NCBI GenBank assembly: GCA_903840355.1 | Contig: CAIMFJ010000004.1 | Span: 62,001 to 126,000, forward strand | Reading direction: 5' to 3' | From: an uncultured Opitutia bacterium | GTDB lineage: Bacteria; Verrucomicrobiota; Verrucomicrobiia; Opitutales; UBA953 | Length of the DNA stretch: 64,000 bases | In this document: positions 23,733-60,763 of the stretch, piece by piece | How positions within the stretch are numbered: the first letter of the stretch is position 1 | How the letters are laid out: the number at the start of each line of letters is the position of its first letter | Program-made: the position numbers and the translations under genes | Notes under the pieces: generated by a model | What the model was told of the DNA's origin: nothing | Seen by the model: only the letters and a program-made list of their open reading frames with translations | The model's database searches: none

Positions 23733-24587
23733 TTAGCGACTGTCAAGCCTTTGGGCAAAACGATCACGGATAACCTTCGGGGCAGGGTGGAGCCCTTGAG
23801 CCTGCAAAAGTCCTGCAGCTTCATCCGAAAATAACCATAAAAGGGCAGGGCGAAGGGCGGGAAGCTGGTCCGTACGATAATAAATATAGAGCGGGAGGCG
23901 AAGCGGGTAGTCGCCGTTATAAATATTCATCTCGTCCGGCGAATACGGCGTGGTCGACTTACCAGGTCGGCCATCCGACACATTAAGAGCCTTACCGACG
24001 GTGGGATCAAGCACGGCAGGGGCTAAGACCAAACATCCTGCCCGGGCTGCCAAGGTCTCCTTCACGGTCGATGCATTCAAGGTCCATCGGGATTCATTCT
24101 GAAAGGGCTGTCCTTCTAAGACCAAGCCTTGGAATAATTCCCGGACGTAAGAACCCTCGGGGGAATACAACCCTGGTAAAATTAATTCCGAACGCGTGAC
24201 GTCAGGTAAGTCATTCCAATTCACCACCCGCAGGCGGGCCTCTCTGCCAAAAACTCCCGCCAATGAAGCAAAGTTCATTTGGTACACGGCGGTATTTGAG
24301 CGATGCACCATGACCACGATAGCCGCATGAGCATAGAGGACCGATTGCAATTTCTCCCCTTGGGGCGGCTTCTCGTCCTCGCGGACAAACATCAAGGCCA
24401 GACTCGCCTCGTTAGTCTGCAACTGCCGGCGAGCGGGCAAGGAGCCTGCTAAATCGATTTTCAAACTCGGCACACTTTTCGCCAACCCTGCCGCTAAGGG
24501 TTTATTTAATAAATCTGAACCAACGATATCCGCAGCCAATAACGGCCACACCGCACCCAACCACAGCGTGGTCAAAAAAAACTTCAT
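23733..24587 (-). CDS. PstS-like phosphate-binding (PBP) domain protein
   Basis: This is an exported periplasmic binding-protein-like protein resembling PstS. I chose ATG 24587: it opens a Sec signal peptide (MKFFLTTLWLGAVWPLLA), and its ATGA overlaps the stop of the NtrC-type gene. The 284 residues contain PstS-like features: an early GSD substrate loop, AIVVMVHRSNT, the MNFASLAGVFGR region, YSPEGSYVRELFQ, and YPLRLPLYIYYRT near the end. No pstC, pstA or pstB gene is in the window, so it may be a lone sensor or scavenging protein. It is co-directional with the hemX-hemA-ntrC group. Confidence 0.75.
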   Translation of the reverse strand: MKFFLTTLWLGAVWPLLAADIVGSDLLNKPLAAGLAKSVPSLKIDLAGSLPARRQLQTNEASLALMFVREDEKPPQGEKLQSVLYAHAAIVVMVHRSNTAVYQMNFASLAGVFGREARLRVVNWNDLPDVTRSELILPGLYSPEGSYVRELFQGLVLEGQPFQNESRWTLNASTVKETLAARAGCLVLAPAVLDPTVGKALNVSDGRPGKSTTPYSPDEMNIYNGDYPLRLPLYIYYRTDQLPALRPALLWLFSDEAAGLLQAQGLHPAPKVIRDRFAQRLDSR

Positions 24588-25972
24588 GAAGCCGTCACGC
24601 TTTCCGAGCCTCGATCCAGTTCGGGCCACTGTAAAAGTTTACGGTGCAACGTGCGCCGAGAAATGCCCATGAGTTCGGCGGCCTTCGTACGATTACCGCC
24701 GGCAGAAGCCAGGGCCTGGCGGAGTAATTGTTTTTCGTTCTGGGCTTTATCTAACATCGGTAAACCGGTGGCGTCCTTGGCCGAAGTAGCCACAAAAGAA
24801 GCCTGTTGCGTAAAACGCGAATCGAGGTCGGCGAGTTCGACCACTTTACCACCACGCATCACCGCTAAGTTTTCGCAGGTGTTCCGCAGTTCGCGAATAT
24901 TCCCAGGCCAGTTATATTTCACCAACGCCGCTTCCGCAGCCGGAGCTAATTTAACCGGAGCCACGCCATTCTCTTGGGCAAACTTTTGTAAATAGTGTGC
25001 TAGCAATAAAGGAATGTCCTCCGTGCGCTGCCGCAACGGGGGTAGTTGCAAAGGCACGACCGACAAACGATAATAAAGGTCTTCGCGGAACTTCCCTTCT
25101 TTCACCATCTGCAACAAATCCCGATTCGTGGCACAAACTAAACGCAGGTCTAACGCCACTGGACGATGAGACCCCAGACGTTCGACGGAGCGCGTTTCTA
25201 AAAAACGCAACAGCTTCACCTGAGTCGTGGCATCAATCTCGCCAATTTCATCCAAGAACAAAGTGCCGCCATCCGCCGACTCAAACCGGCCGATACGACG
25301 TTCGTTGGCCCCGGTAAAAGCACCCTTCTCGTGACCGAATAATTCCGACTCTAATAAATTTGCCGGAATCGCCGCACAATGCACCGCCATGAAAGGCCCC
25401 TTCGCCCGCGGACTCGCTTGGTGAATCATCTGGGCAAATAATTCTTTGCCCGTCCCGGTTTCACCTAACAACAAAACCGTGGCATTCGAGGAAGCGACCG
25501 AGCGCACCTGTTCAATGGAACGCTGCAACGTGGCCGACGAGCCAATGACTTCGGTCAGCGAGAATTTGCGATCGAGGCGGGTTTTTAAATTTACCACTTC
25601 CTTCTCCGTAGAACGCGCCTTCAACCCACGCGCGAGCAAGATTTCTACCTGACGTAAATCCACTGGTTTTTGTAAAAACCAATACGCCCCGCGACTCATC
25701 GCATTCACCGCGGTTTCCACGTCACCATACGCAGTCATCATGATGCACACCGGTTGTTGCGGTAACTTCAATGCTCGATCAATGACCGACATCCCATCTT
25801 CTCCCGCCATCCGGAGATCCGTCAAAATCGCATCGGGCGGCACATCTTGCATGATGCGTGCGGCCTCTTGGGCATCCTTAGCAACAAAGGTTTCATATTT
25901 ATCTTCTAAAGCTGTCCGCAAGCCTTCGCGGGAATGCTTTTCATCATCGACGATTAAAACCGTGGGTTTCAT
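24584..25972 (-). CDS. Sigma-54-dependent response regulator, NtrC family
   Basis: This is a transcription activator for sigma-54 promoters. The receiver domain (VLIVDDEKHSREG, with the likely Asp in AILTDLRMAGEDG) is followed by an AAA+ domain. That domain has Walker A GETGTGKE, the sigma-54 contact loop GAFTGA and Walker B GGTLFLDEIGEID. The protein ends in a Fis-type helix-turn-helix (GGNRTKAAELMGISRRTLHR). ATG 25972 gives 462 residues and overlaps the hemA stop. No cognate kinase is adjacent. It shows that sigma-54 regulation operates in this organism; whether it acts on the urea module's -24/-12 promoters is unknown. Confidence 0.9.
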   Translation of the reverse strand: MKPTVLIVDDEKHSREGLRTALEDKYETFVAKDAQEAARIMQDVPPDAILTDLRMAGEDGMSVIDRALKLPQQPVCIMMTAYGDVETAVNAMSRGAYWFLQKPVDLRQVEILLARGLKARSTEKEVVNLKTRLDRKFSLTEVIGSSATLQRSIEQVRSVASSNATVLLLGETGTGKELFAQMIHQASPRAKGPFMAVHCAAIPANLLESELFGHEKGAFTGANERRIGRFESADGGTLFLDEIGEIDATTQVKLLRFLETRSVERLGSHRPVALDLRLVCATNRDLLQMVKEGKFREDLYYRLSVVPLQLPPLRQRTEDIPLLLAHYLQKFAQENGVAPVKLAPAAEAALVKYNWPGNIRELRNTCENLAVMRGGKVVELADLDSRFTQQASFVATSAKDATGLPMLDKAQNEKQLLRQALASAGGNRTKAAELMGISRRTLHRKLLQWPELDRGSESVTAS

Positions 25973-27012
25973 GGGGTACCAAAAGGAGAACGGTGATTGG
26001 CAGCGCCCCAAGTGCGGGCCGCTTTTTCCGCCAAGGCGACGCGGGCGCGTTCCACTTCTGCTAAGCGCGCTTTTAAGTTAGCATTAGCCACCTGGGCTAA
26101 ATCATCGAGGTCGCAAAGGTAGAGGCCATTCATTTGGCGACCTTGGGCCTCAAAGTTTCGCGGCACACCTAAATCAATCAAGAGTACGGGCTGACCCCGG
26201 CGGCGAGCGACGAGTTCTTGTAACGAGGCGTGATCAATCAACGCCCGATCCACGGTGGCACATCCGATAATTACATCATGCGTGTGGGCTTGGCGCAACG
26301 CATCGACGAGGCTCAAAGAAGAGCCAGCAAATTCTTCTGCTAACTTGCGGGCGTTTTCAAACGTACGCGAGGCTACGGAAACTTGATTGGCACCGCGCGA
26401 GACTAACGCCTGCAGCACTCGATGACCGACTTCGCCGGTACCTAAAACTAACACGCGCGTCTCTTGGAGGGCTCCGAAAACACGTTCCGCTAATTCCACC
26501 GCCACGTTGCCAATGCTCACCTGTCCATGAGAGATCCCCGTGTTCGTCCGCGCCCAAGCTCCTGCTTGGAAGGCACGTTGGAAAACCCGATTTAAAATCG
26601 AGCCCGTCATCCCGCGAGCTAAAGCCTCGGCATAAGCGTCTTTAACTTGGCCTGCGATTTCAACTTCGCCGACCATCTGCGAATCCAAACCCGCCACCAC
26701 CGAAAACAAATGTTCCACGGCTTGGAGTCCGGGAATCGGTTTTAAATGCTGATCGAGCACTTCGGCTTCCACTCCCGTCGCCCGCATCAAAGCCGTGCGT
26801 GCGTGCAAGGCGGCGGCTTCATCGCCGACGACATAAGCTTCGAGGCGATTACACGTGGCGAGTAACACCACTTCTGAAAGCCCACTCTCGCGCGCTACCG
26901 TATAAAAAGATTCTACGCCCGCGGGACTAACACTCAACGTCGCGCGATCATCCAAGCCCGCCGTGCGGTGGGTGGCACTCAAAGCAATTAAGGTGCTCCC
27001 AGGAGTACTCAT
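25969..27012 (-). CDS. hemA: Glutamyl-tRNA reductase
   Basis: HemA reduces Glu-tRNA(Glu) to glutamate-1-semialdehyde, the first committed step of C5-pathway tetrapyrrole synthesis. The catalytic Cys is Cys54 in ATCNRLEAYV. GLDSQMVGEVEI and the NADPH-binding GTGEVGHRVLQAL follow. The C-terminal dimerisation helix is short, so at 347 residues the protein is smaller than the usual 410-430. Its start overlaps the hemX/ccsA-like stop by four bases, the common hemX-hemA pairing. QueG at 5 kb needs cobalamin, a tetrapyrrole that this pathway can feed. Confidence 0.93.
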   Translation of the reverse strand: MSTPGSTLIALSATHRTAGLDDRATLSVSPAGVESFYTVARESGLSEVVLLATCNRLEAYVVGDEAAALHARTALMRATGVEAEVLDQHLKPIPGLQAVEHLFSVVAGLDSQMVGEVEIAGQVKDAYAEALARGMTGSILNRVFQRAFQAGAWARTNTGISHGQVSIGNVAVELAERVFGALQETRVLVLGTGEVGHRVLQALVSRGANQVSVASRTFENARKLAEEFAGSSLSLVDALRQAHTHDVIIGCATVDRALIDHASLQELVARRRGQPVLLIDLGVPRNFEAQGRQMNGLYLCDLDDLAQVANANLKARLAEVERARVALAEKAARTWGAANHRSPFGTP

Positions 27013-47538: not shown

Positions 47539-48528
47539 TTAGGCTAAGATGGTATCGATGGCTTGAAGTTCCGTGGCCGTAAAGGGAGCCGAGAAAGCGG
47601 CGGCAACGCACTGTTCGAGTTGGCTGACCTTGCTGGCACCAATAATTGCCGAAGTCACCCGGGGATCTCGCAGCACCCAAGCAATGGCCATGGAAGCTAA
47701 GGGCTCGCCGCGTTGTTCGGCGATTTTCCCCAGCGCGCGGACTTTGGTTAATTTATCTTCACTCACTTGTTCGGGGCGAAGGAAACCGTGTACTTTGCCC
47801 GCTCGGGCATCTGCTGGAATACCTTGGAGGTAACGATTGGTTAGGAGACCTTGCGCTAAAGGCGAGAAGACTGCACAGCCGAGGCCTTCTTTTTGTACCG
47901 TGTCTAATAATCCAGCTTCGGGAGTCCGCTCAAACATACTGTACTTAGGTTGATGGACGACGCAGGGAGTTCCTAGGTCGCGTAAAAGCGCACAAGCTCG
48001 GGCGGTGTCGGCTGCATTATAATTAGAAATCGCCGCATAAAGCGCCTTGCCGCTTTTGACCGCGTGGGCGAGGGCGCCCATGGTTTCTTCCATCGGCGTG
48101 TTGGGGTCGCGGCGGTGGCTGTAGAAAATATCTACATAGGGCAAGCCAAGGCGACGGAGCGATTGATCGAGCGAGGCGAGTAAGTATTTGCGCGAACCGA
48201 AATCACCATGTGGTCCAGGCCACATCGTGTAGCCAGCCTTGGTGGAAATAATCAGTTCATCGCGATAGGCTTTCAGGTCTTCACGCAGGAAGCGGCCCAT
48301 GGTTTCTTCCGCACTCCCCGGCACTGGACCGTAATTATTGGCTAAGTCGAAGTGTGTAACACCTAAGTCAAAAGCACGTAACGCGATGGCGCGGGCATTT
48401 TGATAATCATCGACGCTTCCGAAATTATGCCAGAGCCCTAAGGCGATTTTAGGGAGGTGCAGTCCTGATTTACCGCACCGCACTTGGAAGTTGGCTGGGG
48501 TGTAACGGTTAGGATTGGCGGTATACAT
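47539..48528 (-). CDS. Aldo/keto reductase (YghZ-like)
   Basis: A 329-residue NADPH-dependent oxidoreductase with the TIM-barrel aldo/keto reductase fold. The catalytic tetrad is visible: Asp and Tyr in HFDLANNYGP, Lys in IISTKAGYTM, and His in FYSHRRDP. The cofactor segment is AIIGASKVSQLEQCV. Sequence style resembles E. coli YghZ, a reductase of small aldehydes such as glyceraldehyde 3-phosphate. ATG 48528 is chosen; an upstream start would add 19 residues. It is divergent from the urea module. Confidence 0.9.
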   Translation of the reverse strand: MYTANPNRYTPANFQVRCGKSGLHLPKIALGLWHNFGSVDDYQNARAIALRAFDLGVTHFDLANNYGPVPGSAEETMGRFLREDLKAYRDELIISTKAGYTMWPGPHGDFGSRKYLLASLDQSLRRLGLPYVDIFYSHRRDPNTPMEETMGALAHAVKSGKALYAAISNYNAADTARACALLRDLGTPCVVHQPKYSMFERTPEAGLLDTVQKEGLGCAVFSPLAQGLLTNRYLQGIPADARAGKVHGFLRPEQVSEDKLTKVRALGKIAEQRGEPLASMAIAWVLRDPRVTSAIIGASKVSQLEQCVAAAFSAPFTATELQAIDTILA

Positions 48529-48548
48529 GACGATAATCAAGCGGGGGT

Positions 48549-48565
48549 GCTGGAAATTGACCAGC
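48549..48565. promoter_or_regulatory. Inverted repeat between the divergent reductase and urea genes
   Basis: GCTGG-7 bases-CCAGC forms a short dyad at 48549-48565, 21 bases from the aldo/keto reductase start and 151 bases upstream of the sigma-54 promoter. Such a position could serve an activator of the urea promoter or a repressor of the reductase. It does not match a standard NtrC site. Confidence 0.3.
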
Positions 48566-48715
48566 GACAAATGAAATCCCCGCACCGTCTTTCAGGGCTA
48601 GGGGTGATGATTATTTTACACGATGTCTAGAAATCACCGCCTCTGCCAGGGGGTGTTACCTTTTTTTGTCCAAAACTTAACAGATTACCGATTGGCCCAT
48701 GCCACCGGCGATGAT

Positions 48716-48730
48716 TGGCACGGCCGATGC
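48716..48730 (+). promoter_or_regulatory. Sigma-54 (-24/-12) promoter of the porin-urtA unit
   Basis: TGGCACG-GCCG-ATGC matches the consensus TGGCACG-N4-TTGC at all but one defined base, with GG and GC at the exact -24/-12 spacing. It points toward the porin gene, whose ATG is at 48760, giving a predicted start of transcription near 48742 and an 18-base leader. Sigma-54 control fits nitrogen-limitation regulation of urea use; an NtrC-family activator exists at 24.6-26 kb. Confidence 0.75.
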
Positions 48731-48759
48731 TCCAGTGGAGATGCTAAACGCACACACAT

Positions 48760-49725
48760 ATGAATACACGCAACCAACTCACGGCTACCTTCTTGGTCGC
48801 CGCTTCCACCCTGACGGCGCTCGCGGATGCTCCCGCTGCTGCAACGCCTGCATTGACCTTTGATGGTTATGCAGTCGCCACGGCAACGAGTTCCACCACG
48901 TCCAGCGTCTCGACGACCACCATGGATCTGAATGCGGCTAAGTTTGGGGTGCACTACACCTCCGGCAACATTTCGGCTTATGGCAGCGTCTTCTATGATG
49001 GTACGACCACCAACGTGCTCGATGCTTACGCCACGATCACCGAAGGTTCGACGGCCATCACTGTCGGTAAGTTCCTCAGCTACCTGGGTTACGAAGCCTT
49101 TGATATTCCTAATATGAACCAAATTACCTATGGTAATGGTGGTTTAATTGGTGGTCCGATCCCTGCTTATCACTCGGGCGTGAAGGTAGATTATACCGGT
49201 TCGACTTTTGGTGCTGGCGCGGCGGTGGTGGACTCGATTTACGGCGACACTCTCTTTAAGGGTGATGGCGACCTAAAGAAGCCTGGTTTAGAAGCTTACG
49301 TCACCTACAAGGGCATCAAGGATACGCAAATCTGGTTCGGTATCGCCGATGAAGTTGCGACTTCCACGCAAGTTTACGACCTGTGGGTCCAGTATAACAT
49401 CAATAAGACCGACACCATCGCCGTTGAAGCACTCTACAAGAACACTGCCGGCTATGATTGGTTGGTTGAATACGTAAAGACGCTTTCGCCGAAGTGGTCT
49501 TTGACTGCCCGGGTTGCTGGTGATGGTGCGTCGCATTACTACTCGGCCTTAGAAGGTTACAATAACACCGGTGCCAAAACCACGGATCTTAAACTCACCT
49601 TAGCTCCTAGCTACTCGTTCAACGATCACTTCCTGATCCGCGCCGAGGTTTCCTACATCAACTACACCAACTACACTGCCAGCTCGACGACCTTCTTCGG
49701 CGCCCAAAGCATCCTGAAGTTCTAA
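48760..49725 (+). CDS. Outer-membrane beta-barrel porin leading the urea operon
   Basis: The exported 321-residue protein has a Sec signal peptide (MNTRNQLTATFLVAASTLTALA). The body alternates hydrophobic and polar residues with frequent Tyr/Thr and short turns, ending in ILKF with the terminal Phe usual for outer-membrane barrels. It resembles the Verrucomicrobia/Bacteroidetes porin-like (BBP2-type) proteins; the exact family is uncertain. It lies directly behind a sigma-54 promoter and 27 bases before urtA. It is therefore probably the outer-membrane route for urea or another small nitrogen compound. That specificity is inferred. Confidence 0.75.
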   Translation: MNTRNQLTATFLVAASTLTALADAPAAATPALTFDGYAVATATSSTTSSVSTTTMDLNAAKFGVHYTSGNISAYGSVFYDGTTTNVLDAYATITEGSTAITVGKFLSYLGYEAFDIPNMNQITYGNGGLIGGPIPAYHSGVKVDYTGSTFGAGAAVVDSIYGDTLFKGDGDLKKPGLEAYVTYKGIKDTQIWFGIADEVATSTQVYDLWVQYNINKTDTIAVEALYKNTAGYDWLVEYVKTLSPKWSLTARVAGDGASHYYSALEGYNNTGAKTTDLKLTLAPSYSFNDHFLIRAEVSYINYTNYTASSTTFFGAQSILKF

Positions 49726-49752
49726 GAGCGGCGAAACACCAAGCTTCCCGCC

Positions 49753-51012
49753 ATGAATATACCACGTCTTAGCAGTATTCTCACCGTCGGGGCTTTGGCC
49801 CTGGCTACCCTCGTTTCGCCTGTGAAGGCGGAAGAAACCGTTAAAGTCGGTGTCCTGCACTCGCTCTCTGGCACGATGGCGATCAGCGAAACGTCGCTCC
49901 GCGACGTCTTACTGTTCACCTTCGACGAAATCAATGCCAAGGGCGGTGTCTTAGGTCGCAAGATTGAGCCCGTCGTGGTCGACGGTGCTTCGAACTGGCC
50001 GCTCTTCGCCGAAAAAGCGAAGCAGTTGCTCGAGCAAGATCACGTTGCCGTAACCTTCGGTTGCTGGACGTCGGTCTCGCGCAAGTCCGTCTTGCCGGTC
50101 TACGAAAAGAACAATGGTCTGTTGTTCTACCCAGTGCAGTACGAAGGTGAAGAGGAGTCGAAGAACGTGGCCTACACGGCGGAAGCGGTTAACCAACAAG
50201 CCACCCCAGCGGTAGACTACTTACTCGCGCAAGGCGTGAAGAAGTTCTACCTCTTGGGCTCGGACTACGTCTACCCTCAAACCACCAACTTGGTGTTACT
50301 CGAGTACCTCTTGAGCAAAGGTGTACCTATCGAGAACATCGGTGGCGGTTTCCGGAAAGACGCTTCGGGTAAAATCATCTCGGCTGGTAAGTACACTCCC
50401 TTCGGTCATACCGACTACCAACAAATCGTTGCGGAAATTAAGCAATTCGCAGCGGGTGGTGGCGCGGCCGTGGTGAGCACGCTGAATGGTGATACGAACG
50501 TGCCCTTCTTCAAAGAGTATGCGGCTTCGGGTTTAACGGCTGAAACTTGCCCAGTGGTTTCCTTCTCGATCTCGGAAGACGAGTTCCGTGGGTTACCTGC
50601 TGACAAGCTGGTCGGTCAACTCGGTTGCTGGACCTACTTCCAATCCATCAAGTCGCCTGCGAACAAGAAGTTCGTGGCTGATTTCCAAGCATGGTTGGCA
50701 AAGAGCACGGTTCCAGGTATCGTTAAAGAAGGTCGCGTGACCTGCTCCCCGATGGTCCTCTCCTACGACGGTGTCTACCTCTGGAAGGCTTGCGTAGAAA
50801 AAGCGGGTTCCTTCGATGTGGATAAAGTCCGCGAAGTTTGGAAGTCTGGCGTCAGCTTCAATGGTCCAGGCGGTAAGGTTACCACTCAGCCCAACATGCA
50901 CCTCACCAAGAATGTGTTCATCGGTGAGACGAAGGCCGACGGTCAGTTCAAGATTCTGAAGTCCTTCGATAACGTGTACGGCGAGCCCTGGTTAAAAGGT
51001 AAGTTTAAATAA
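49753..51012 (+). CDS. urtA: Urea ABC transporter, substrate-binding protein
   Basis: UrtA is the periplasmic binding protein of the high-affinity urea transporter. The 419-residue protein has a Sec signal peptide ending VKAEE, followed by [52 protein letters not shown] and [18 protein letters not shown]. These are characteristic of UrtA rather than of amino-acid binding proteins (LIVAT family). It follows the porin gene closely and is followed by an intrinsic terminator, then urtB. Confidence 0.95.
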
Positions 51013-51046
51013 ACCAAAGAATTGTCGGTTGTCGGTGCTTCATAGC

Positions 51047-51080
51047 GAGGGCGGGTCTGCGAGGACCCGCCCTCTTCCTT
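51047..51080 (+). terminator. Intrinsic terminator/attenuator between urtA and urtB
   Basis: An 11-bp perfect GC-rich stem (51047-51057 GAGGGCGGGTC with 51064-51074) has a 6-base loop and is followed by TTCCTTTT. It would stop most transcripts from the first promoter after porin and urtA, so these products would exceed the permease and urease proteins. Read-through or the second sigma-54 promoter at 51090 would supply the rest. Confidence 0.85.
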
Positions 51081-51089
51081 TTTCAAGTT

Positions 51090-51104
51090 TGGCACATTAG
51101 TTGC
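51090..51104 (+). promoter_or_regulatory. Second sigma-54 (-24/-12) promoter, before urtB
   Basis: TGGCACA-TTAG-TTGC matches the sigma-54 consensus with the right GG/GC spacing; the only deviation is A for G at the seventh base. It lies between the urtA terminator and the urtB ATG at 51117. The predicted transcription start (near 51116) would leave almost no leader before urtB, so urtB may be translated from a leaderless or nearly leaderless message. Confidence 0.75.
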
Positions 51105-51116
51105 TGATAAGTAATC

Positions 51117-52883
51117 ATGGTCCGACTGTTTTTAATTCAAACGTTCCTCTGGTTGGCTTGCGGCATGGTAGCCGAAGCCCAAGACGCGCGTCATGAGATC
51201 GCCGCGGCGACGCTCCTGAAGGGGGAGGCAGCCCAAATTAAGGCCCTCAATGGCTTAATGGGCCAAGCGGACGACGCGATTTTCCCGCTTTTAGAGGCCT
51301 GGCGAAAGGATCGTTTGTTCTTATATGAAGCGAACGGTAAAACGGTGCCGGTTTTGTTAGTGGGTGCTAAAGATAAAGAGGGAATGCAAGCGGCGGAGCG
51401 CATTGATACGGGCAAGCCCTTGGTGGATGAAAAAGGGGCTGCGATTCGCTTAAATGCTGAGGATTTGAATGCGGTAGCCCACTCCGCCAACTTGCGGCGC
51501 GTGATGAAGGCGGTCTTAGATTTAACGGATTTAGCGTCCTCAGAGCCCGCTAAGCGTCGCAGTGCCTTAGCTGCTATCGGCCAAGCTCAACAATTAGAGA
51601 AATTACCCGCGTTAGAGAAACGTTTAGCGGTAGAAAAGGACGCGGATGTTCTTGCGGCTCTACATGAAGCCATCGCTTTGGTGCGTTTAAAGTCACCTGA
51701 TCGTGCCGTCAAAGTCGCCGCCCTGAAGGAGCTTGAACAAATTCAGTCACTCGCGAGTACGGATTTCATAGCGACTGTTGAAAAAGAAGCAAAATTAGCC
51801 AAAGATGAAAATTTAGCAGTACATGCCCATACGACTTTACTGGCGATTAATCGGCATCGCTCGGTGGTCGACTTCGGCGGCACGCTTTTCCGCAGTTTAA
51901 GCTTAGGGAGTATTCTGCTCATCGTGGCGCTAGGTTTAGCGATCACCTTTGGTTTAATGGGGGTGATTAATATGGCCCACGGCGAGATGATCGCCATCGG
52001 CGCCTACACGACTTATGTCGTCCAAAACGTTTTTGCGGCGGGCCTAGCACTGTCACCTTTTGGTTTCTCGGTGATGATTCCCGGCCTCCACGCCACAGGT
52101 TGGTTTAAAGAATCTTATTTCCTCTTTGCCCTGCCTTTAAGTTTCCTCACCGCCGCGGTCGCCGGGATTCTTTTAGAGCGTGGCGTCATTCGTTTCCTCT
52201 ACCGCCGTCCTTTAGAAAGTTTATTAGCCACGTGGGGCGTATCGCTCTTACTGCAACAACTCCTGCGTTTAACGTTCGGAGCTAACAATGTCCAAGTCGG
52301 CAGTCCCTCTTACTTGAGTGGCAATTGGGTCGTGGCCGATATCTTGTTGGGTTGGAATCGCATCTTCGTCATCGCATTTGCTGCCCTGATTGTGTTCGGC
52401 GTGTGGCTATTATTAACGAAAACGCCCGTGGGATTATTGATTCGGGCGGTGACGCAAAACCGGGCCATGGCCTCTTGCATGGGGGTGCGCACGGAGCGAG
52501 TGAACACGCTGACTTTTGCACTCGGGAGCGGTTTAGCAGGTTTGGCCGGTGCCTTCCTCAGCCAAATTGGCAACGTCGGTCCGTCGCTCGGTCAGTCTTA
52601 TATCGTCGACAGCTTCATGGTCGTCGTGGTCGGCGGCGTGGGCAATTTAGTCGGGACCATCATCAGTGGTCTGGGCATCGGGTCGTTCGATCAATTCGTC
52701 CAGCAGTATTCTCCAAGTGTCGCCGGGGCTTTGACTGAAGTGCCTTGGGTCGGCGGCTTTCTTCAAAACCTCGCACAAGATTCGGCGGTGTTCGGCAAAA
52801 TCTTAGTGCTCTGTGCCATCATCCTCTTCCTGCAATGGCGCCCCTCGGGGCTCTTTGCCGTGCGCTCCCGTAACCTCGACTAA
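51117..52883 (+). CDS. urtB: Urea ABC transporter, permease UrtB
   Basis: UrtB is one of the two inner-membrane permeases. The 588-residue protein has a signal-peptide-like N terminus, then a large periplasmic alpha-helical domain (about residues 25-250) typical of long UrtB forms. The LIV-type permease core follows (ILLIVALGLAITFGLMGVINMAHGE; DSFMVVVVGGVGNLVGT) with about eight transmembrane helices. It starts 13 bases after a sigma-54 promoter and continues into urtC after eight bases. Confidence 0.95.
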   Translation: MVRLFLIQTFLWLACGMVAEAQDARHEIAAATLLKGEAAQIKALNGLMGQADDAIFPLLEAWRKDRLFLYEANGKTVPVLLVGAKDKEGMQAAERIDTGKPLVDEKGAAIRLNAEDLNAVAHSANLRRVMKAVLDLTDLASSEPAKRRSALAAIGQAQQLEKLPALEKRLAVEKDADVLAALHEAIALVRLKSPDRAVKVAALKELEQIQSLASTDFIATVEKEAKLAKDENLAVHAHTTLLAINRHRSVVDFGGTLFRSLSLGSILLIVALGLAITFGLMGVINMAHGEMIAIGAYTTYVVQNVFAAGLALSPFGFSVMIPGLHATGWFKESYFLFALPLSFLTAAVAGILLERGVIRFLYRRPLESLLATWGVSLLLQQLLRLTFGANNVQVGSPSYLSGNWVVADILLGWNRIFVIAFAALIVFGVWLLLTKTPVGLLIRAVTQNRAMASCMGVRTERVNTLTFALGSGLAGLAGAFLSQIGNVGPSLGQSYIVDSFMVVVVGGVGNLVGTIISGLGIGSFDQFVQQYSPSVAGALTEVPWVGGFLQNLAQDSAVFGKILVLCAIILFLQWRPSGLFAVRSRNLD

Positions 52884-52891
52884 TTTCCTTT

Positions 52892-54004
52892 ATGTCTGAA
52901 GCACCTGAAAATCCTTTAAGTCCCCCGCCGTTGAGTAATTCCACGGCCGGCATCTTGGCGTTTGCCGCCGGTGCGATGTTGATTCTTCCAGCGTTGGATG
53001 CTGGTGGGGTGATTGACCACTTCACGCTCAATTTGTGGGGCAAATATTTTTGTTATGCCTTGTTGGCGTTGTCGGTCGATTTGCTCTGGGGCTGGACGGG
53101 TTTACTTTCGCTCGGTCAGGCGCTGTTCTTCGCGCTCGGGGGTTACATGCACGGGATGTATTTGATGCGCATGATTGGGACGCAAGGCCAATACCATAAG
53201 CCCATTCCCGACTTCTTGGTTTTCTTAGGTTGGACGGATCTGCCGGCGTTTTGGAAACCGTTCGATCAGTTCACGTTTGCTATGGCGATGGTCTTTTTCC
53301 TGCCCGGGATTTTGGCTTTCCTCTTTGGCTGGTTGGCGTTCCGCTCGCGCATCAAAGGGGTTTACTTCTCGATTCTCACTCAGGCCCTGACTTACGCGGG
53401 GGCGCTGATTTTCTTCCGCAACAACACCTTGATGGGGGGTAATAATGGTTTTACCGACTTTAAAGAGGAATTGGGTTTTGCCTTACGTGAACCATCGACC
53501 CAGCGAGGTTTATTTGTCGCGACGGCGGCGGCTTTAGTGGGCGTGGTCATCTTCCTCCGCTGGTTAAGTGGCACGAAGTTCGGATTGGTGCAGCGCGCGA
53601 TTCGTGACGGCGAAAATCGCACCTTGTTTAGTGGCTACGCCACGCCGGCCTTTAAATTGTTTATCTTTGTCATCGCAGGGATGATTGCCGCCATTGGCGG
53701 CGCACTGTATGTCCCGCAAGTGGGGATTATTAATCCGAGCGATATGACGCCGGATAAATCTTTAGAAGCCATTGTCTGGGTCGCGGTGGGGGGACGTGGA
53801 ACTTTAGTGGGACCTATCTTAGGAGCCGTGGCTGTGAATATGCTTAAGAGCTACGCCACGCGGGCGATGCCCGATCTTTGGCTGATTCTCCTCGGGGGTC
53901 TCTTCTTGCTGGTGGTGCTCTTCCTCCCTGGCGGCTTAGTTAGCTTACCGGAAAAAATCCGTGGCCTTTGGAAAAAATCTATCCCCGCCACGCTCCCCGC
54001 ATAA
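52892..54004 (+). CDS. urtC: Urea ABC transporter, permease UrtC
   Basis: UrtC is the second permease. The 370-residue protein has about ten hydrophobic segments and UrtC phrases: LLWGWTGLLSLGQALFFALGGYMHGMYLMR, FRSRIKGVYFSILTQALTYA, NNTLMGGNNGFTDF and AVGGRGTLVGPILGAVAVN. It lies eight bases after urtB; the gap to urtD is five bases. Confidence 0.95.
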   Translation: MSEAPENPLSPPPLSNSTAGILAFAAGAMLILPALDAGGVIDHFTLNLWGKYFCYALLALSVDLLWGWTGLLSLGQALFFALGGYMHGMYLMRMIGTQGQYHKPIPDFLVFLGWTDLPAFWKPFDQFTFAMAMVFFLPGILAFLFGWLAFRSRIKGVYFSILTQALTYAGALIFFRNNTLMGGNNGFTDFKEELGFALREPSTQRGLFVATAAALVGVVIFLRWLSGTKFGLVQRAIRDGENRTLFSGYATPAFKLFIFVIAGMIAAIGGALYVPQVGIINPSDMTPDKSLEAIVWVAVGGRGTLVGPILGAVAVNMLKSYATRAMPDLWLILLGGLFLLVVLFLPGGLVSLPEKIRGLWKKSIPATLPA

Positions 54005-54009
54005 TTCTC

Positions 54010-54786
54010 ATGGCTCACCCATTATTAACCGTAGAAGACATTTCCAAAACGTACGATGGCTTTAAGGCGATCACGAAACTTAACTTCTACCTTTTCGAAG
54101 GCGAGTTGCGCACGGTGATTGGTCCGAATGGCGCTGGTAAATCGACCTTTTTTGATTTACTCACCGGCCGGACGCGGCCCGATGAAGGTAAAATCGAGTT
54201 CGGGACGGAAGCGAATAATTCGCATGACTTGACCCGACTGAACGAGGTGGAAATTAACCGCTTGGGCATCGCCCGAAAGTTTCAAACGCCCAGCGTTTAT
54301 ACCGAGCACAGCGTGCGCGAAAATTTGGTACTTTCTTTAAAAGGTCCCCGCGGCGTTTTTAGTTCCTTGTTCCAACGGCTCTCTTCCACGGAGAACGACC
54401 GCATCGATGAACTGCTCAAGCTCATTCGCCTCGAGGCTAAAGGATCTTGGAAAGCGGGTTTACTGGCACACGGCGAAAAGCAATGGCTCGAAATTGGCAT
54501 GCTTTTAGCCGCGGAACCGCGCGTTCTCTTGGTGGATGAACCTGCTGCTGGTATGACCGATGAAGAAACTTATCGTACCGGCGAACTGCTGCTCTCGCTC
54601 GCGGGTAAGCACAGTTTAATTGTGGTCGAACACGACATGTCCTTCGTCCGCCAAATCGCTCGCGATGGACGTGTGACGGTGTTGCACCAAGGGACGTTGC
54701 TGTGCGAAGGCAAATTTGATGAAGTCCAAGCTGACCCACGCGTGCGCGAAGTATACCTCGGCCGCGGCAAACATGGCACCCGATGA
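54010..54786 (+). CDS. urtD: Urea ABC transporter, ATPase UrtD
   Basis: UrtD is one of two ATP-binding subunits. Visible motifs are Walker A GPNGAGKST, Q loop RKFQTPSVY, the signature-like LAHGEKQWLEIGMLL, Walker B VLLVDEPAAGM and the switch VEHDMSFV. ATG 54010 gives 258 residues, matching the usual ~250; an upstream ATG would add 14 non-family residues. Its end overlaps urtE by four bases. Confidence 0.95.
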   Translation: MAHPLLTVEDISKTYDGFKAITKLNFYLFEGELRTVIGPNGAGKSTFFDLLTGRTRPDEGKIEFGTEANNSHDLTRLNEVEINRLGIARKFQTPSVYTEHSVRENLVLSLKGPRGVFSSLFQRLSSTENDRIDELLKLIRLEAKGSWKAGLLAHGEKQWLEIGMLLAAEPRVLLVDEPAAGMTDEETYRTGELLLSLAGKHSLIVVEHDMSFVRQIARDGRVTVLHQGTLLCEGKFDEVQADPRVREVYLGRGKHGTR

Positions 54787-55511
54787 ATCACTTATTACAA
54801 TTATCACAGGTGGAAGCCGACATTGGCGGCTCCCGGATTCTCCGCGGCGTTAATTTAGAAATTAAGCCGGGCGAAGTCGTGGCCCTCATGGGCCGGAATG
54901 GCGTGGGGAAGACGACGACGCTGAAAGTCATTACGGGACTCCTGCCGGTGCGCGCGGGGGCGATTGATTTTAACGGCCAATCTTTGGTCGGTAAATCCGT
55001 CGACGCCCGTGGCCGAGCTGGGTTAGGTTACGTGCCGCAAGGTCGTGATATCTTCCCTCACTTAACGGTGGAGGAGAATTTACAAATCGGCCTCGTGGTT
55101 CATGGCCGGAAAGGTGCCGATGCCCAAAAGGCTTTGGACCAAGTTTTTGGTTTATTCCCAGTTTTAAAACAAATGCTGTCGCGTAAGGGTGGGGTGCTTT
55201 CAGGTGGCCAACAGCAACAGTTAGCGATTGGGCGGGCGCTTTTAACCGATCCGCGTCTTTTAATTTTAGATGAACCCACCGAGGGGATTCAGCCTTCAAT
55301 CATCGAGCAAATCGGCGATACCTTGAAGTTACTCAAGCAGGCTCGCCGGGTCGATGGGTCGCCGCTGTCGATTTTATTAGTCGAACAATACGTCGATTTC
55401 TGTCGTGACGTTGCCGATCGGTTCTACGCTATGGATCGGGGCGCCGTGGTCGTGTCCGGCACGATTGCTGAACTTACCGACGACGTTGTCCGCACCCACC
55501 TTCAAGTTTAA
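54783..55511 (+). CDS. urtE: Urea ABC transporter, ATPase UrtE
   Basis: UrtE is the second ATP-binding subunit. The 242-residue protein has Walker A GRNGVGKTTTLK, GLGYVPQGRDIFPHLTVEEN, the signature LSGGQQQQLAIGRALL, Walker B LLILDEPTEGIQPS and VEQYVDF. It follows urtD with an ATGA overlap and is six bases before ureA, so transport and urease genes appear to form one transcript. Confidence 0.95.
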   Translation: MNHLLQLSQVEADIGGSRILRGVNLEIKPGEVVALMGRNGVGKTTTLKVITGLLPVRAGAIDFNGQSLVGKSVDARGRAGLGYVPQGRDIFPHLTVEENLQIGLVVHGRKGADAQKALDQVFGLFPVLKQMLSRKGGVLSGGQQQQLAIGRALLTDPRLLILDEPTEGIQPSIIEQIGDTLKLLKQARRVDGSPLSILLVEQYVDFCRDVADRFYAMDRGAVVVSGTIAELTDDVVRTHLQV

Positions 55512-55517
55512 CCCTCC

Positions 55518-55823
55518 ATGCACCTTACTCCTCGCGAGCGCGAAAAATTGTTAGTCGTGGTGGCCGCTGACCTCGCCCGTCGCCGCCAAGCCCGTGGTTT
55601 AAAATTAAACTACCCCGAAGCTATCGCCATCATCACCTATGAAGTGATGGAAGGCGCCCGCGACGGGAAAACCGTAGCGGAACTGATGTCCTATGGTTCA
55701 ACGATTTTACGCGAAGCCGATGTCATGGAAGGCGTAGCGAGTATGATTCACGACGTACAAGTCGAAGCCACTTTTCCTGATGGCACTAAATTAGTAACCG
55801 TACACCAACCCATCCGCTCATGA
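55518..55823 (+). CDS. ureA: Urease gamma subunit
   Basis: UreA is the small gamma subunit of nickel urease. The 101-residue protein is full length and shows [41 protein letters not shown] and [14 protein letters not shown]. It overlaps ureB by four bases and starts a compact ureABCEFGD series. Confidence 0.97.
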
Positions 55824-56128
55824 AACCTGGCGAAATCATTCCAGCTAAGGCTGAAGACTTCTTGGTGAATCAAACTTTAGCGACGCTTGAGTTAACGGTC
55901 GCCAATACGGGTGATCGTCCGATTCAGGTTGGCTCGCACTTCCATTTTGCAGAAGTTAATGAAGCGTTAAAATTCGACCGCGCGGCGGCCCGAGGCTTTC
56001 GTTTAGATATCGCCGCGGGCACGGCGGTACGCTTTGAAGCCGGTGATACCCGCACGGTGCACTTAGTCGCCCTGGCAGGGCAACGCGAAGTTTGGGGCTT
56101 CAATGGCCACATCAACGGCAAACTTTAA
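55820..56128 (+). CDS. ureB: Urease beta subunit
   Basis: UreB is the beta subunit. The 102-residue protein shows [52 protein letters not shown] and a [10 protein letters not shown] end. Length is normal. It is translationally coupled to ureA by an ATGA overlap; ureC begins five bases downstream. Confidence 0.97.
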
Positions 56129-56133
56129 TTACC

Positions 56134-57903
56134 ATGAGTCATCGTTTATCCCGACGTCAGTATGCCGAAATGTATGGCCCCACGGTCGGAGATCGTGTGC
56201 GCCTTGGTGACACGAATCTTTTGGTCGAAGTCGAACGGGACTTGATCGTTGAAAAGGGCGGCTATGGAAACGAAGTAAAGTTTGGGGGCGGTAAAGTCAT
56301 TCGCGATGGCATGGGACAGTCATCTACGGCGTCAGATGCCGAGTCGTTAGATTTAGTCGTTACGAATGCGTTAATTCTCGATCCCATTTTAGGGGTTATC
56401 AAAGCCGACATTGGTATCAAAGCGGGTCGTATTGTTGGCATTGGTCACGCAGGCAACCCAGGGATTCAATCGGGCTTAGGCTCCGCTTTTCCTGATCCGA
56501 AAACCGGCCAATTTAATCCGATGATTATCGGTGCCTGCACCGAAGTCCTCGCCGCGGAAGGGTGTATCGTTACCGCGGGTGGCATCGATACACATATTCA
56601 CTTTATTTGTCCGCAACAAGTAGACGAAGCGGTGAGCTCTGGTATCACGACCTTGATTGGCGGCGGTACTGGTCCAGCGCACGGAACGTTAGCAACCACA
56701 TGTACTCCTGGTAAGTGGAATTTACAGCGGATGTTGGAGTCGGCTGAATCTTACCCAGTGCACTTCGGTTTCTTGGGTAAGGGTAACTGTTCGACGCCTG
56801 GGCCTTTACGTGAACAGGTGCTAGCTGGTGCAATCGGACTGAAGTTACACGAAGATTGGGGGACGACTCCTGCAGCCATCGATACCTGTTTAGGAGTAGC
56901 GGATGAATTGGATGTGCAAGTGGCCATCCATACTGATACTTTAAACGAAGCTGGTTTTGTCGAAACGACCTTGAAGGCTTTCCGTGGTCGTACGATTCAC
57001 ACTTATCACTCTGAGGGGGCCGGGGGTGGACACGCTCCCGACATCATCCGGGTTTGTGGTGAAGCGAATGTGTTACCTTCTTCGACCAATCCCACTCGTC
57101 CTTTCACGGTCAACACCATCGATGAGCACCTCGACATGTTGATGGTCTGTCACCATTTGGATGCACGTATTCCCGAAGATGTCTCTTTTGCCGAATCTCG
57201 CATTCGGCCTGAGACGATTGCGGCCGAAGATCGCCTGCACGATTTAGGGGCAATTTCGATGATGTCGTCGGATTCGCAGGCGATGGGACGCATCGGCGAA
57301 GTCATTTGTCGTACTTGGCAAACTGCACACAAAATGAAGGAGCAGTTTGGCGTCTTAGCTGGAGGTCAGCATCCCGCTGCCGATAATTTCCGCGTCTTAC
57401 GTTACTTGGCTAAGTATACCATTAACCCAGCGCTGACGCATGGCATTGCACACGTTGTAGGTTCTTTAGAAGTTGGTAAGGCCGCCGACTTCGTCGTGTT
57501 TAAACCGGCACTTTTTGGCGTGAAACCCGAGATGGTAGTTCGCGGCGGCTTTATCGCGTGGGCGAATATGGGAGATCCGAACGCTTCGATTCCGACGCCC
57601 CAACCCACATTCTATCGTCCGCAATGGGGAGGCACGGGTAAAGCGATGTCGCGCACGAGCTTCACGTTTGTCAGCGAAGCCTCCTTGGCGGACCCTCAAG
57701 GCGTGCGAAGTCTCGGGCTAACGCGTCAACTCGAAGCGGTGCGACGTTGTCGGCAGGTTTCTAAACATGACATGGTGTTGAACAACAGTTTGCCCCATAT
57801 CGTCGTCGACCCTGAAACCTATCGTGTCACCGCTGACGGGGTTCACTTAACTTGCGAGCCGGCTCGAGTCTTGCCGTTAGCGCAGCGATATTTTCTCTTC
57901 TAA
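56134..57903 (+). CDS. ureC: Urease alpha (catalytic) subunit
   Basis: UreC carries the nickel site. Visible catalytic and nickel residues are [14 protein letters not shown], the carbamylated Lys region [52 protein letters not shown] (flap His) and [13 protein letters not shown] (Asp). At 589 residues it is about 20 longer than usual. The extra stretch lies around residues 105-130 ([15 protein letters not shown]), before the first nickel motif. ATG 56134 is chosen; upstream reading overlaps ureB and lacks family residues. Confidence 0.97.
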
Positions 57904-57905
57904 GT

Positions 57906-58379
57906 ATGGCTCTCATCGTCATCCCAGCGCCTTTGAGTGAACCTCAGGCAACTTTACCAGTGGTGGCGATTAAGGCGGATCGACATGACCTCGCGCGTCG
58001 TCGGTGGCGGGCGGTGGCGGAGGACGGTCAGGAATTTGGGTTTGATTTAACCAAACCGGTACGTCACGGCCAAACCGTTTATGCCACGCCGACGCAGCGA
58101 TATGTAATCCAACAACATCCTGAGCCGACATTGGTCGTGGCGTTACAGTTAGCCCCTGCCACCGCCGTGGGTTTAGGTTGGGCGTTTGGAAATTTACATT
58201 TAGAGGCTTCGTCAGAGCCGAGTTGTATGGTCGTGCCCGACACGACGGCGGCGCGACAATTGCTCGCTCGTTTGGAAATTAGTTTCACCGAAGAAGTCAG
58301 AGTATTTCGCCCCGGGCATTTTGCACGGGTGCAACAACCTCCTCATGAACTCGGACCCAGCCATCAACACGCAGGTTAA
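57906..58379 (+). CDS. ureE: Urease accessory protein UreE (nickel chaperone)
   Basis: UreE carries nickel to the urease assembly complex. The 157-residue protein has the N-terminal peptide-binding domain (ADRHDLARRRWRAVAEDGQEF) and a metal-binding domain with LGWAFGNLHLEA, and a C-terminal HQHAG His pair. Many UreE proteins have longer His tails; this one is short. ATG 57906 begins two bases after the ureC stop. Its coding region overlaps ureF by 35 bases. Confidence 0.87.
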   Translation: MALIVIPAPLSEPQATLPVVAIKADRHDLARRRWRAVAEDGQEFGFDLTKPVRHGQTVYATPTQRYVIQQHPEPTLVVALQLAPATAVGLGWAFGNLHLEASSEPSCMVVPDTTAARQLLARLEISFTEEVRVFRPGHFARVQQPPHELGPSHQHAG

Positions 58380-59058
58380 TTGGCTCCTGGGTCTTATTCA
58401 GGCAGCAGATAATTTTTATCCCACGGGTGCTTATGCACATTCCTATGGCCTAGAAGGACTCGTGGAAGCGGGCGTGGTGCACGATCGCGCCACCTTACGT
58501 CGGTTTCTTTTGAACATGGTGCTTCCGCAATTGCACCAGATTGAAATCCCTTTGGCGACCCACGCCTGGGAAGCGTTGGGCACGGAGGACTGGAGTACGC
58601 TCCGGGAAATTTGCATACTTTCAGCTGCGCTACGGGCCCCGCGGGAACTCCGGGAGGCTGCCGAGGCGATGGGGCGGCAACGAGCTCACTTAGCCCAACA
58701 GTTACATCCTTCGCCTCTGGCGGACACGTTTTGGGAAAAATCGCAGGAAGAAAAGTGGCCGCATTGTTTGGCGGTCGCCACCGCCTTAGAGGCTCGCCTG
58801 ACGCAGGCTCCAGTCACCGCTGTTTACGCGGCGGTGATTTATGCGGCTGTGGCGGGGGTGATTGCCGCAGCGATGAAATTATTACGTTTGGGGCAGAATG
58901 GAGCGCAAACCCTCCTCACCGAAGTTTTAGCCACTGGTTCACACCTCACTCCGGCGACCACGCACCGCCCGCTCCAAGCCATCGGTTGGTTTAATCCTTG
59001 GATGGATATCGCTTCCGCTCGGCATGAAACCGCCGCGGCCCGACTTTTTATTTCTTAA
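58345..59058 (+). CDS. ureF: Urease accessory protein UreF
   Basis: UreF acts with UreD and UreG in loading nickel into urease. The 237-residue protein is helical and shows the UreF opening [24 protein letters not shown] and a late [27 protein letters not shown], with TAAARLFIS at the end. It starts inside the end of ureE. Its stop is one base before the ureG ATG. Confidence 0.92.
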
Positions 59059-59059
59059 T

Positions 59060-59689
59060 ATGGAAACCACCACTTCACGTCGTCGGGCGCCTCGAATCGG
59101 CATCGGGGGCCCCGTTGGTTCGGGCAAAACGATGCTCTGCCTGCGACTCTGCCAAGCGTTGCGTGAGCGTTATTCTATGGGGGTCGTGACTAATGACATT
59201 TATTGTTCCGAGGATGCCGAATACTTGATTCGGCAGGCGGCTTTACCAACGGGTCGCATTCGCGGCGTGGAAACCGGTGGCTGCCCCCATACGGCCATTC
59301 GCGATGACACCACGATGAATGAGCAAGCTTGCGTGGCCTTGGAGGCTGCGACGCCGGGCTTACAATTGATGTTAGTGGAAAGCGGCGGGGATAACCTTAC
59401 CGCCACGTTCTCGCCCGAATTAGTCGATGCCTTTATTTACGTGATTGATGTGGCAGAGGGCGAAAAAATTCCGCGCAAGGGCGGCCCCGCGATTCGCCAC
59501 AGCGATTTACTGATTATTAATAAAATTGATTTAGCGCCTTATGTCGGTGCCGACTTAAGTGTCATGGAACGAGATGCCAAAGTCCAACGCGGGACCCGAC
59601 CTTTTGTTTTTTGTGATTTAAAGCGGCAGCATAACCTCGACCAAGTGATTCAATGGATTGAGCGCGAAGTTTTATTTGTGACGGCTTAA
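59060..59689 (+). CDS. ureG: Urease accessory GTPase UreG
   Basis: UreG is the SIMIBI GTPase that powers nickel insertion. The 209-residue protein has the P-loop [38 protein letters not shown] (nickel-binding CPH), [15 protein letters not shown] and [13 protein letters not shown]. Length is normal. It begins one base after ureF and ends two bases before ureD. Confidence 0.97.
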
Positions 59690-59691
59690 GC

Positions 59692-60528
59692 ATGAAAGCA
59701 CTCACGGGCCATCTACACCTCCGCGCCGGCCTGACTTCGTCCGGTGATACGGCGATTGTGGCCCAATCGTTTTGTGCCCCTTTTCATTTAAGTAAGCCGC
59801 ATTGGGATCCCGACACGCAGGTATTACACGCTCAAGTGGTTAATCCCACCGCCGGGATTTTGGCTGGCGATGCGTTAGACTTAGCTATCGAAGTGGAATC
59901 CGGGGCGGCTTTATTGCTGACGACGCCAAGTGCCTCACGGGTTTTTAAAATGGAAGGCGCCGAGCAGGCGACTGGCCGGCAACATTTCCGGGTGGCTGCG
60001 GGAGCTTGGTTAGAAGTTTTTCCAGAGCCCTTGGTGCCGCATGCGGGTTCGGCTTACACGCAAGAAACGTTGCTTGAAGTCGCCGCCGGTGGTGGCTTGT
60101 TCTTCGTCGATCAATTGATGCCGGGTCGCCTCGCCCATGGTGAAGCTTGGAAGTGGCGTCAATTAGTCCTCGGTTTACGCGTCGAGGTAGCTGGCACGCT
60201 CCTCTTGCGCGAACGCTGGGAACAGTCTGGCGAATCTTTAGCCGCGTTGGCTTCTTTTACGGACACGGGTCCAACGACGTGCTTTGCCAATGGGGTTTTA
60301 ATTCTGCCTGCGGCTGCCGAAAATGCCGAAGTGCCGACTTGGGTGACGGTGATACGTCAACTCCACCAAAATGGAATTTGGGTGGGAATGAGTCAGTTAC
60401 GCCAAGCGGGTTGGAGTCTGCGGGTGATTGCCCCTGACCCGTTAGCGATGCGGACGACTTTAGAAGACGTGCGTAAAATTCTTAAGACAACTTTTCCGCG
60501 CTTAGGCTGTGGGTTGCGTCGGCCTTAG
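59692..60528 (+). CDS. ureD: Urease accessory protein UreD (UreH)
   Basis: UreD is the scaffold that brings UreF/UreG to urease. The 278-residue protein shows VVNPTAGILAGDALDLAIEVESGAALLLTTPSASRVF, LEVFPEPLVPHAGSAY and FVDQLMPGRLAHGE, typical of the family. It is placed last in the cluster instead of the more frequent first position. Its final 47 bases are overlapped on the opposite strand by a His-rich small protein gene. Confidence 0.92.
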   Translation: MKALTGHLHLRAGLTSSGDTAIVAQSFCAPFHLSKPHWDPDTQVLHAQVVNPTAGILAGDALDLAIEVESGAALLLTTPSASRVFKMEGAEQATGRQHFRVAAGAWLEVFPEPLVPHAGSAYTQETLLEVAAGGGLFFVDQLMPGRLAHGEAWKWRQLVLGLRVEVAGTLLLRERWEQSGESLAALASFTDTGPTTCFANGVLILPAAAENAEVPTWVTVIRQLHQNGIWVGMSQLRQAGWSLRVIAPDPLAMRTTLEDVRKILKTTFPRLGCGLRRP

Positions 60529-60763
60529 ATTGTGAACGAACGGTCAGCAACGAGACTAAGCCCCAAACTAAGCCACCCATTAAAGCAAAGCACAAGAAGG
60601 TCGCCCCGGGATGCTGGCTTAAGTGATCAGCGGTCCAGACGAACTCGCCGCCGTCTTCATGCCCTTCGTGTCCAGGGTGAGCCCACGTGGAAGCGGTCAG
60701 GGCGACCCAAGTCATGGCGGTGAGGAGGGCGAGTTTGGTGCGAGTGCGGAAAGCGAGTTGCAT
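60482..60763 (-). CDS. Small exported His-rich single-helix membrane protein
   Basis: Unknown family. The 93-residue protein has a signal peptide likely cut after TASTWA, leaving a mature N terminus HPGHEGHEDGGEF with five His residues in the first 28 positions. One transmembrane helix (FLCFALMGGLVWGLVSLLTV) and a short cytoplasmic tail follow. The pattern of clustered His beside an acidic stretch suggests metal binding, similar in style to the HPGHG start of HupE/UreJ nickel permeases. Position next to the urease genes makes nickel plausible, but this is inference. It follows the GH81 gene on the same strand after 94 bases and overlaps the end of ureD. Confidence 0.55.
   Translation of the reverse strand: MQLAFRTRTKLALLTAMTWVALTASTWAHPGHEGHEDGGEFVWTADHLSQHPGATFLCFALMGGLVWGLVSLLTVRSQSKADATHSLSAEKLS

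Follow-up and report, generated by a model that had tools for sequence, protein, structure and literature searches.

A urea uptake and urease cluster with a porin gene beside urtA and two predicted sigma-54-type promoters in an uncultured Opitutia bacterium

We analyzed a 64,000-nucleotide stretch of DNA from an uncultured Opitutia bacterium (GenBank assembly GCA_903840355.1; bases 62001-126000 of contig CAIMFJ010000004.1; hereafter the window), taken from a genome of 2.27 Mb with 99% completeness. Positions 48760-60528 of its forward strand carry a gene for a BBP2-family porin, the urea transporter genes urtABCDE, the urease genes ureABC and the accessory genes ureEFGD, all as open reading frames (ORFs) in one direction, in agreement with a preliminary description of the same DNA. 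We consider it likely that this cluster is a nitrogen-scavenging urea module, organized in two sigma-54-type units and equipped with a porin that admits urea. The host is most likely a freshwater member of the Verrucomicrobiota, because the nearest named loci come from Opitutae and Verrucomicrobia metagenome-assembled genomes (MAGs; L099-L105), several of which bear lake-like names (L and G numbers are our own handles for loci and genomes). The features of the cluster are as follows, in window coordinates.

48716-48731, + strand: predicted promoter P1, -24/-12 (sigma-54) type, TGGCACGGCCGATGCT, 28 nt before the porin ATG
48760-49725, + strand: BBP2 porin, 321 amino acids (aa), signal-peptide-like N-terminus, predicted 16-stranded barrel, ends in F (PF07642 and structure model)
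49078-49167, + strand: porin codons 107-136, long conserved loop after predicted strand 5 (model and alignment)
49753-51012, + strand: urtA, urea-binding protein (TIGR03407, 496.3 bits; cut-off 492.75)
51047-51074, + strand: terminator-like hairpin, 12 pairs by scan, then a T-rich tract (fold scan and conservation)
51090-51105, + strand: predicted promoter P2, -24/-12 type, TGGCACATTAGTTGCT, 11 nt before urtB
51117-52883, + strand: urtB, permease (TIGR03409, 368.1 bits; cut-off 250.3)
52892-54004, + strand: urtC, permease (TIGR03408, 413 bits; cut-off 296.2)
54010-54786, + strand: urtD, ATPase (TIGR03411, 339.4 bits; cut-off 304.1)
54783-55511, + strand: urtE, ATPase (TIGR03410, 298.3 bits; cut-off 285.8)
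55518-55823, + strand: ureA (over curated family cut-offs)
55820-56128, + strand: ureB (over curated family cut-offs)
56134-57903, + strand: ureC (over family cut-off; metal-site and active-site motifs located)
57906-58379, + strand: ureE (PF05194, UreE_C, 33.1 bits; cut-off 23)
58345-59058, + strand: ureF (PF01730, 108.4 bits; cut-off 23.3)
59060-59689, + strand: ureG (TIGR00101, 296.3 bits; cut-off 204.2; Pfam CobW/UreG also over cut-off)
59692-60528, + strand: ureD (PF01774, 140 bits; cut-off 27)

All five Urt subunits exceed their NCBIfam cut-offs, UrtA by a small margin (496.3 versus 492.75), and the predicted role of UrtABCDE is high-affinity urea transport. The nickel urease is represented by UreA, UreB and UreC together with the accessory proteins E, F, G and D, with UreE recognized by its C-terminal domain only. 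UreC retains several conserved motifs, including SSDSQAMGR, which we take to be the metal ligands, the carbamylated lysine and the active-site loop. Intergenic gaps range from -35 to +27 bases, with the urtA-urtB junction (104 bases) as the sole exception.

The porin gene is linked to urtA across relatives, a comparison proposed in the preliminary description. Within the genus, 5 of 13 genomes carry urtA, and in the three for which upstream sequence is available a porin 53-54% identical to that of the window lies directly before a urtA that is 94-95% identical. The genus genomes G011 (94% complete), G264 (99%) and G366 (97%) lack urtA, so the module is patchy at this level. A profile of five porins retrieved 57 loci in named genomes, all Verrucomicrobiota by their titles, giving 58 sources with the window. 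Both genes were detected by tblastn in 48 of the 58, and they are adjacent and co-directional in every one of these 48 (median gap 172 bases, range 27-343). Among the sources in which no pair was scored, the sequence ends at or near the porin end in L138, L143 and L146; in L154 and L155 urtA follows a porin that was found by the porin profile and is too distant for tblastn scoring; L132 has no urtA beside its porin, but the contig stops 265 bases after the porin. Five loci (L119, L124, L126, L128 and L137) show the order urtBCDE-porin-urtA-ureABC, and L125 is alike up to urtA, where its sequence ends; by title, four of the six belong to Akkermansiaceae and one to Verrucomicrobiaceae. Because porin and urtA are kept adjacent where urtBCDE lies upstream, the pair evidently withstands rearrangement.

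The near-consensus -24/-12 element previously noted before the first gene is real (P1), and a second element (P2) lies before urtB; the two score equally, at 14.0 of 14.5. The strict pattern TGGCACRNNNNNTGCW has 12 matches in the 2.27 Mb genome and 5 in a reversed control, and the pattern by itself is weak evidence; P1 is raised above chance because the site is conserved before the porin in relatives, at the same position in L015, L016 and L018. Six of the 12 strict matches sit 11-52 nt before start codons, namely those of P-II, amt (ammonium transporter), glutamine synthetase III, a DUF748-like gene, the porin and urtB, and the remaining six fall within long ORFs on either strand. With P-II, amt and glutamine synthetase III among the genes behind this pattern, the set looks like a nitrogen regulon. 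The DUF748/AsmA-like gene (L026:702-1481, minus strand; under Pfam cut-offs) has its near-perfect -24/-12 site 19 nt before the start and adjoins grpE- and dnaJ-like ORFs, which were named by eye.

The genome has one match to rpoN. The sigma-54 activator domain is matched five times; two of these matches are strong, and both lie in response regulators. One of the strong matches is encoded in the window and is a candidate regulator of the cluster.

24584-26011, - strand: sigma-54 activator (activator-domain match)

Consensus -24/-12 elements, an rpoN gene and an activator with a sigma-54 interaction domain are all present, and this sequence evidence supports the sigma-54-type control suggested earlier; RpoN-dependent transcription from P1 and P2 is predicted. 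Sites in relatives were scored over 16 positions within 250 nt upstream of each gene, by using uncalibrated weights built from the consensus and a threshold of 13 of 14.5, with lower sites left uncounted; the threshold was fixed before the relatives were counted, but after the sites in the window's own genome and genus had been seen. At this threshold, the porin has a site upstream in 34 of 49 sources (shuffled expectation 0.23) and urtB has one in 26 of 42 (shuffled expectation 0.12; reverse strand 0), with 0 of 50 before urtA, 1 of 40 before urtC and 0 of 34 before ureA. Co-occurrence of rpoN was tried as a test of the sites and was uninformative, rpoN being found in 36 of 40 genomes (40 of the 57 loci covered).

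The urtA-urtB intergenic region folds at -37.8 kcal/mol (z -3.2), a value reached by 0 of 200 shuffles. Its GC-rich hairpin is present in four congeners with a stem that varies by two compensatory pairs and a T-rich tract that runs directly into the -24 element of P2, and P2 itself is kept in L015, L016, L017 and L019. Across relatives, 33 of 36 urtA-urtB intergenic regions contain a strong stem, against 0.23 expected. Because a terminator-like hairpin follows urtA and P2 precedes urtB, the cluster looks like two sigma-54-type units, porin-urtA from P1 and urtB-ureD from P2. The preliminary description had placed one series behind one promoter; the co-directional series holds, and the hairpin and P2 in the 104-base gap divide it into two units.

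The roughly 25 bases ahead of the hairpin (window 51022-51046) hardly vary between the window and four congeners and could be an activator site or a 3'-untranslated-region element. A conserved 24-base pattern at the hairpin, GTCGGTGCTTCATAGCGAGGGCGG, spans the end of this stretch and occurs once per genome in the window genome and the four congeners. It was also considered as a dispersed repeat and rejected, because 5 of 19 genomes have a single copy each and no other copy turned up at up to 3 mismatches.

The porin matches BBP2 at 37.5 bits (PF07642; gathering cut-off 26.2). AlphaFold2, run on an alignment of 44 rows, returned a 16-stranded barrel with mean pLDDT 84.4 and pTM 0.79, in which a long loop follows strand 5, as in 16-stranded porins. 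This loop (residues 107-136, 30 residues) has a mean information of 3.21 bits, with all other loops at 0.49-2.87, and the ten-residue blocks 101-110 (3.94) and 111-120 (3.59) are the most conserved of the protein. The loop after strand 5 is presumably L3 of known 16-stranded porins, which folds into the pore; loop 107-136 probably lines the pore and is a candidate constriction loop and conserved selectivity region. The best Foldseek match was OmpT of Vibrio cholerae (4.8e-13), and by VIA-align OprP, OprO, PorB and OmpT were tied (Z 24.5-25.4, rmsd 2.5-2.8, 260-291 residues aligned), with general porins close behind. OprP/OprO, PorB and OmpT thus share the predicted fold of the window porin, but they are only 11-17% identical to it, and the window porin matches Pfam BBP2. 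The genome also encodes a second porin (L003:895-2277; Porin_O_P, 105 bits; C1 near 91594) with a gene for an NMT1-type ABC substrate-binding protein directly after it (L003:1-855), another pairing of porin and binding protein in this genome.

We then surveyed the position upstream of urtA across the class. UrtA was searched in 384 genomes, of which 106 matched; the survey covered the 90 strong matches (E below 1e-150, a hand count) and left aside the 16 weaker matches. An uninterrupted, same-strand, barrel-like ORF precedes urtA in 78 of the 90 genomes, and all 78 end in F, W or Y, five of them (L079, L083, L094, L201 and L206) running off the 5' end of the stretch. The gap to urtA has a median of 100 bases over the 77 measured, with two outliers at 701 and 724. 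As to the other 12 genomes, G097 has a group-C-like barrel with a broken frame (groups are defined below); in G385 the barrel is one small ORF away from urtA, at a contig edge; G365 has a divergent barrel-like ORF; G254 and G289 have a barrel at the urtE end; G250 and G159 are cut by contig ends; and upstream DNA scanned in G154, G193, G374, G359 and G399 held no barrel before urtA. The intervening ORF of G385 (L218:505-1026) encodes 174 aa with a signal-like start.

By phmmer, the 78 barrels fall into group A (17 members, including the window's type), group B (35) and group C (26). Pfam BBP2 matches 25 of 25 scanned group C members (26 in the group; best 5.5e-50) and 44 of 44 rows of a broader group A alignment (E up to 0.1). 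Any Pfam match occurs in at most 4 of the 34 scanned members of group B (35 in the group; best E 0.0041), and NCBIfam gave only scattered weak matches to group B, one member each. With so few Pfam matches, group B is assigned as barrels by its signal-like N-terminus, its aromatic last residue and its position. Profiles of groups A and B found no solved structure by sequence up to E 1. Profile comparison gave 95.5% for A-C (E 1.4e-8), 37.8% for A-B (E 3.4e-4) and 0.4% for B-C. Groups A and C are, on these profiles, distantly related homologues, and the three groups would form two lineages by sequence (A with C; B), or a single lineage should the A-B match be real.

Sites of the -24/-12 type precede the barrel gene in 10 of 16 (A), 19 of 35 (B) and 5 of 22 (C) cases, where shuffling predicts 0.05, 0.18 and 0.03 and the reverse strand gives 1, 0 and 1, respectively. 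Before urtA itself the counts are 2 of 17, 0 of 35 and 0 of 26, the two sites belonging to the group-A genomes G341 and G206 (L219 and L220), in which roughly 700 nt separate the barrel from urtA. A quick UrtA tree has 90 rows, 80 of them labelled A, B or C (with G097 taken as C and G385 as A), and on it the barrel type changes at least 11 times; 30 of the tree's 87 inner branches are starred and 28 drawn open, and the starred branches alone force fewer changes. Genus g115 is itself mixed, with group A in G165 and G383 and group B in G218 and G320. By these comparisons of sequence, the slot persists and different barrels come to fill it. Four proteobacterial plasmid loci, out of 688 matching plasmid records, had no barrel annotated or seen directly upstream of urtA; the Vibrio stretch among them was unannotated and judged by its ORFs.

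An outer-membrane channel in a urea system has precedents, and the statement in the preliminary description that such a channel is not a standard part of described urea systems was too strong. FmdC, from the fmdCABDEF cluster of Methylophilus methylotrophus, is the closest precedent in the accessible parts of the sources (PMC10781810, PMC5877670), although it is clustered with formamidase rather than urease and is likened to the window porin by description only. Comammox Nitrospira are credited with a predicted amide/urea porin alongside UrtABCDE and urease (named fmdC in PMC11064514, unnamed in PMC6311188 and PMC7078480) and so resemble the window in having a predicted porin, a Urt transporter and urease in one genome; that porin is a prediction, and the available portions of these papers describe neither a porin heading a urt cluster nor twin -24/-12 sites. 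The NtrC regulon of Burkholderia cenocepacia (PMC5491218) is similar in that urt and ure genes are under NtrC and sigma-54 and several porins belong to the same regulon, but the accessible text places no porin next to urt. In the literature searched, from which subscription papers are mostly absent, we found neither a slot of this kind across the class, nor barrel groups exchanged within it, nor twin -24/-12 units with an intervening terminator-like hairpin; the available parts of PMC5615132, PMC13274419 and PMC11851481 likewise describe none of these features.

Several observations weigh against our interpretation. The fold matches indicate a porin and single out no substrate. Both strong activators fall below the NtrC equivalog cut-off (TIGR01818, 558.6 bits) at 483.8 and 424.6 bits, and by sequence they resemble NtrC and are NtrC-like only. 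The site scan is not noise-free, the reverse-strand control at the porin giving 5 of 49 (L106, L113, L117, L118 and L130). Sites reach the threshold in 0 of 5 porin rows and 0 of 7 urtB rows of L144-L155, which judging by titles are probably marine loci and may be regulated differently from the others; 8 of 11 tested genomes of this set have rpoN, and porin-urtA linkage is mostly kept there. In the class survey, group C, the second largest, has sites in just 5 of 22 cases. Four loci (L121, L135, L141 and L153) have a porin homologue without urtA beside it, and outside the class a BBP2 barrel precedes urtA in only 1 of 7 loci of the phylum (L244), so that Urt systems manage without a barrel. 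Finally, a strong stem also occurs in 29 of 42 porin-urtA gaps longer than 30 nt, and co-transcription of porin and urtA is therefore less clear in relatives than in the window, whose own 27-nt gap is below the length scanned.

The alternatives overlap with the reading that we prefer, and the weights given to them are not meant to sum to one. The strongest takes the porin for a general channel induced by nitrogen starvation, which passes many small nitrogen solutes and sits beside urtA merely through joint induction; we regard it as a real contender, though on balance we doubt it. General porins let urea through, as it is a small, neutral molecule; OprP/OprO, PorB and OmpT are tied as fold matches; porin homologues without urtA exist; and the turnover of barrel groups at the slot may indicate that any pore suffices and that demands on the pore are weak. 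The regulon of B. cenocepacia, where according to the accessible text NtrC controls urt and ure genes and several porins (PMC5491218), points the same way. A general channel accounts less well for a linkage that is to urtA in particular (48 of 48 sources with both genes) and survives rearrangement of urtBCDE, or for a candidate constriction loop that is more conserved than any other loop.

A single long operon from P1, with P2 minor and a hairpin that merely stabilizes the message, would fit the short gaps elsewhere in the cluster (-35 to +27 bases), and read-through at intrinsic terminators is common. P2, however, scores like P1 and is nearly as widespread (26 of 42 versus 34 of 49), and the strong urtA-urtB stem recurs in 33 of 36 regions; on the evidence of the hairpin and P2 we set the single operon aside as improbable. 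A third view, in which the barrel has a different function, for example in envelope attachment or adhesion, and its linkage to urtA is incidental, seems to us very hard to credit: the fold matches include the attachment porin OmpM1, but the 321 aa are taken up by a signal-like start and the barrel, with no room for an attachment domain, and class-wide linkage to urtA and the nitrogen regulon also argue otherwise.

Two further genes flank the cluster. An aldo/keto reductase gene (47539-48585, minus strand) is divergent from the porin gene and keeps this position in L015, L016 and L018. At the other end, a convergent ORF (60482-60763, minus strand) overlaps the end of ureD and encodes a His-containing, membrane-like protein of 93 aa; it is kept in L016, L017 and L019 with 46-60% identity over part of its length, matched no family in a Pfam scan, and perhaps functions in metal handling.

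Under the two-unit interpretation, an NtrC-like activator and RpoN would open P1 (porin-urtA) and P2 (urtBCDE-ureABCEFGD) during nitrogen limitation, and the hairpin after urtA would terminate most P1 transcripts, leaving the porin and the periplasmic binding protein at higher amounts than the membrane transporter and urease. Urea, probably along with other small amides, would enter the periplasm through the 16-stranded porin; UrtA would capture the urea there for import by UrtBCDE, and urease would release ammonium from it. A bolder proposal, which we offer as speculation and think rather unlikely, is that a urea-admitting channel is a standing part of Urt systems in the class, and that one barrel group has displaced another in the slot time and again, with the type of sigma-54 promoter unchanged. 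Every group would have gained a preference for urea, and the groups would be convergent urea-selective porins.

Outer-membrane entry is usually omitted from accounts of bacterial urea uptake. That the slot before urtA stays occupied despite changes of barrel speaks for selection on entry through the outer membrane when urea is low, and suggests that this step in urea uptake is important to these bacteria. Three candidate barrel groups are now available for direct comparison of urea permeation, and a promoter signature now marks the nitrogen regulon in a group with few cultured members.

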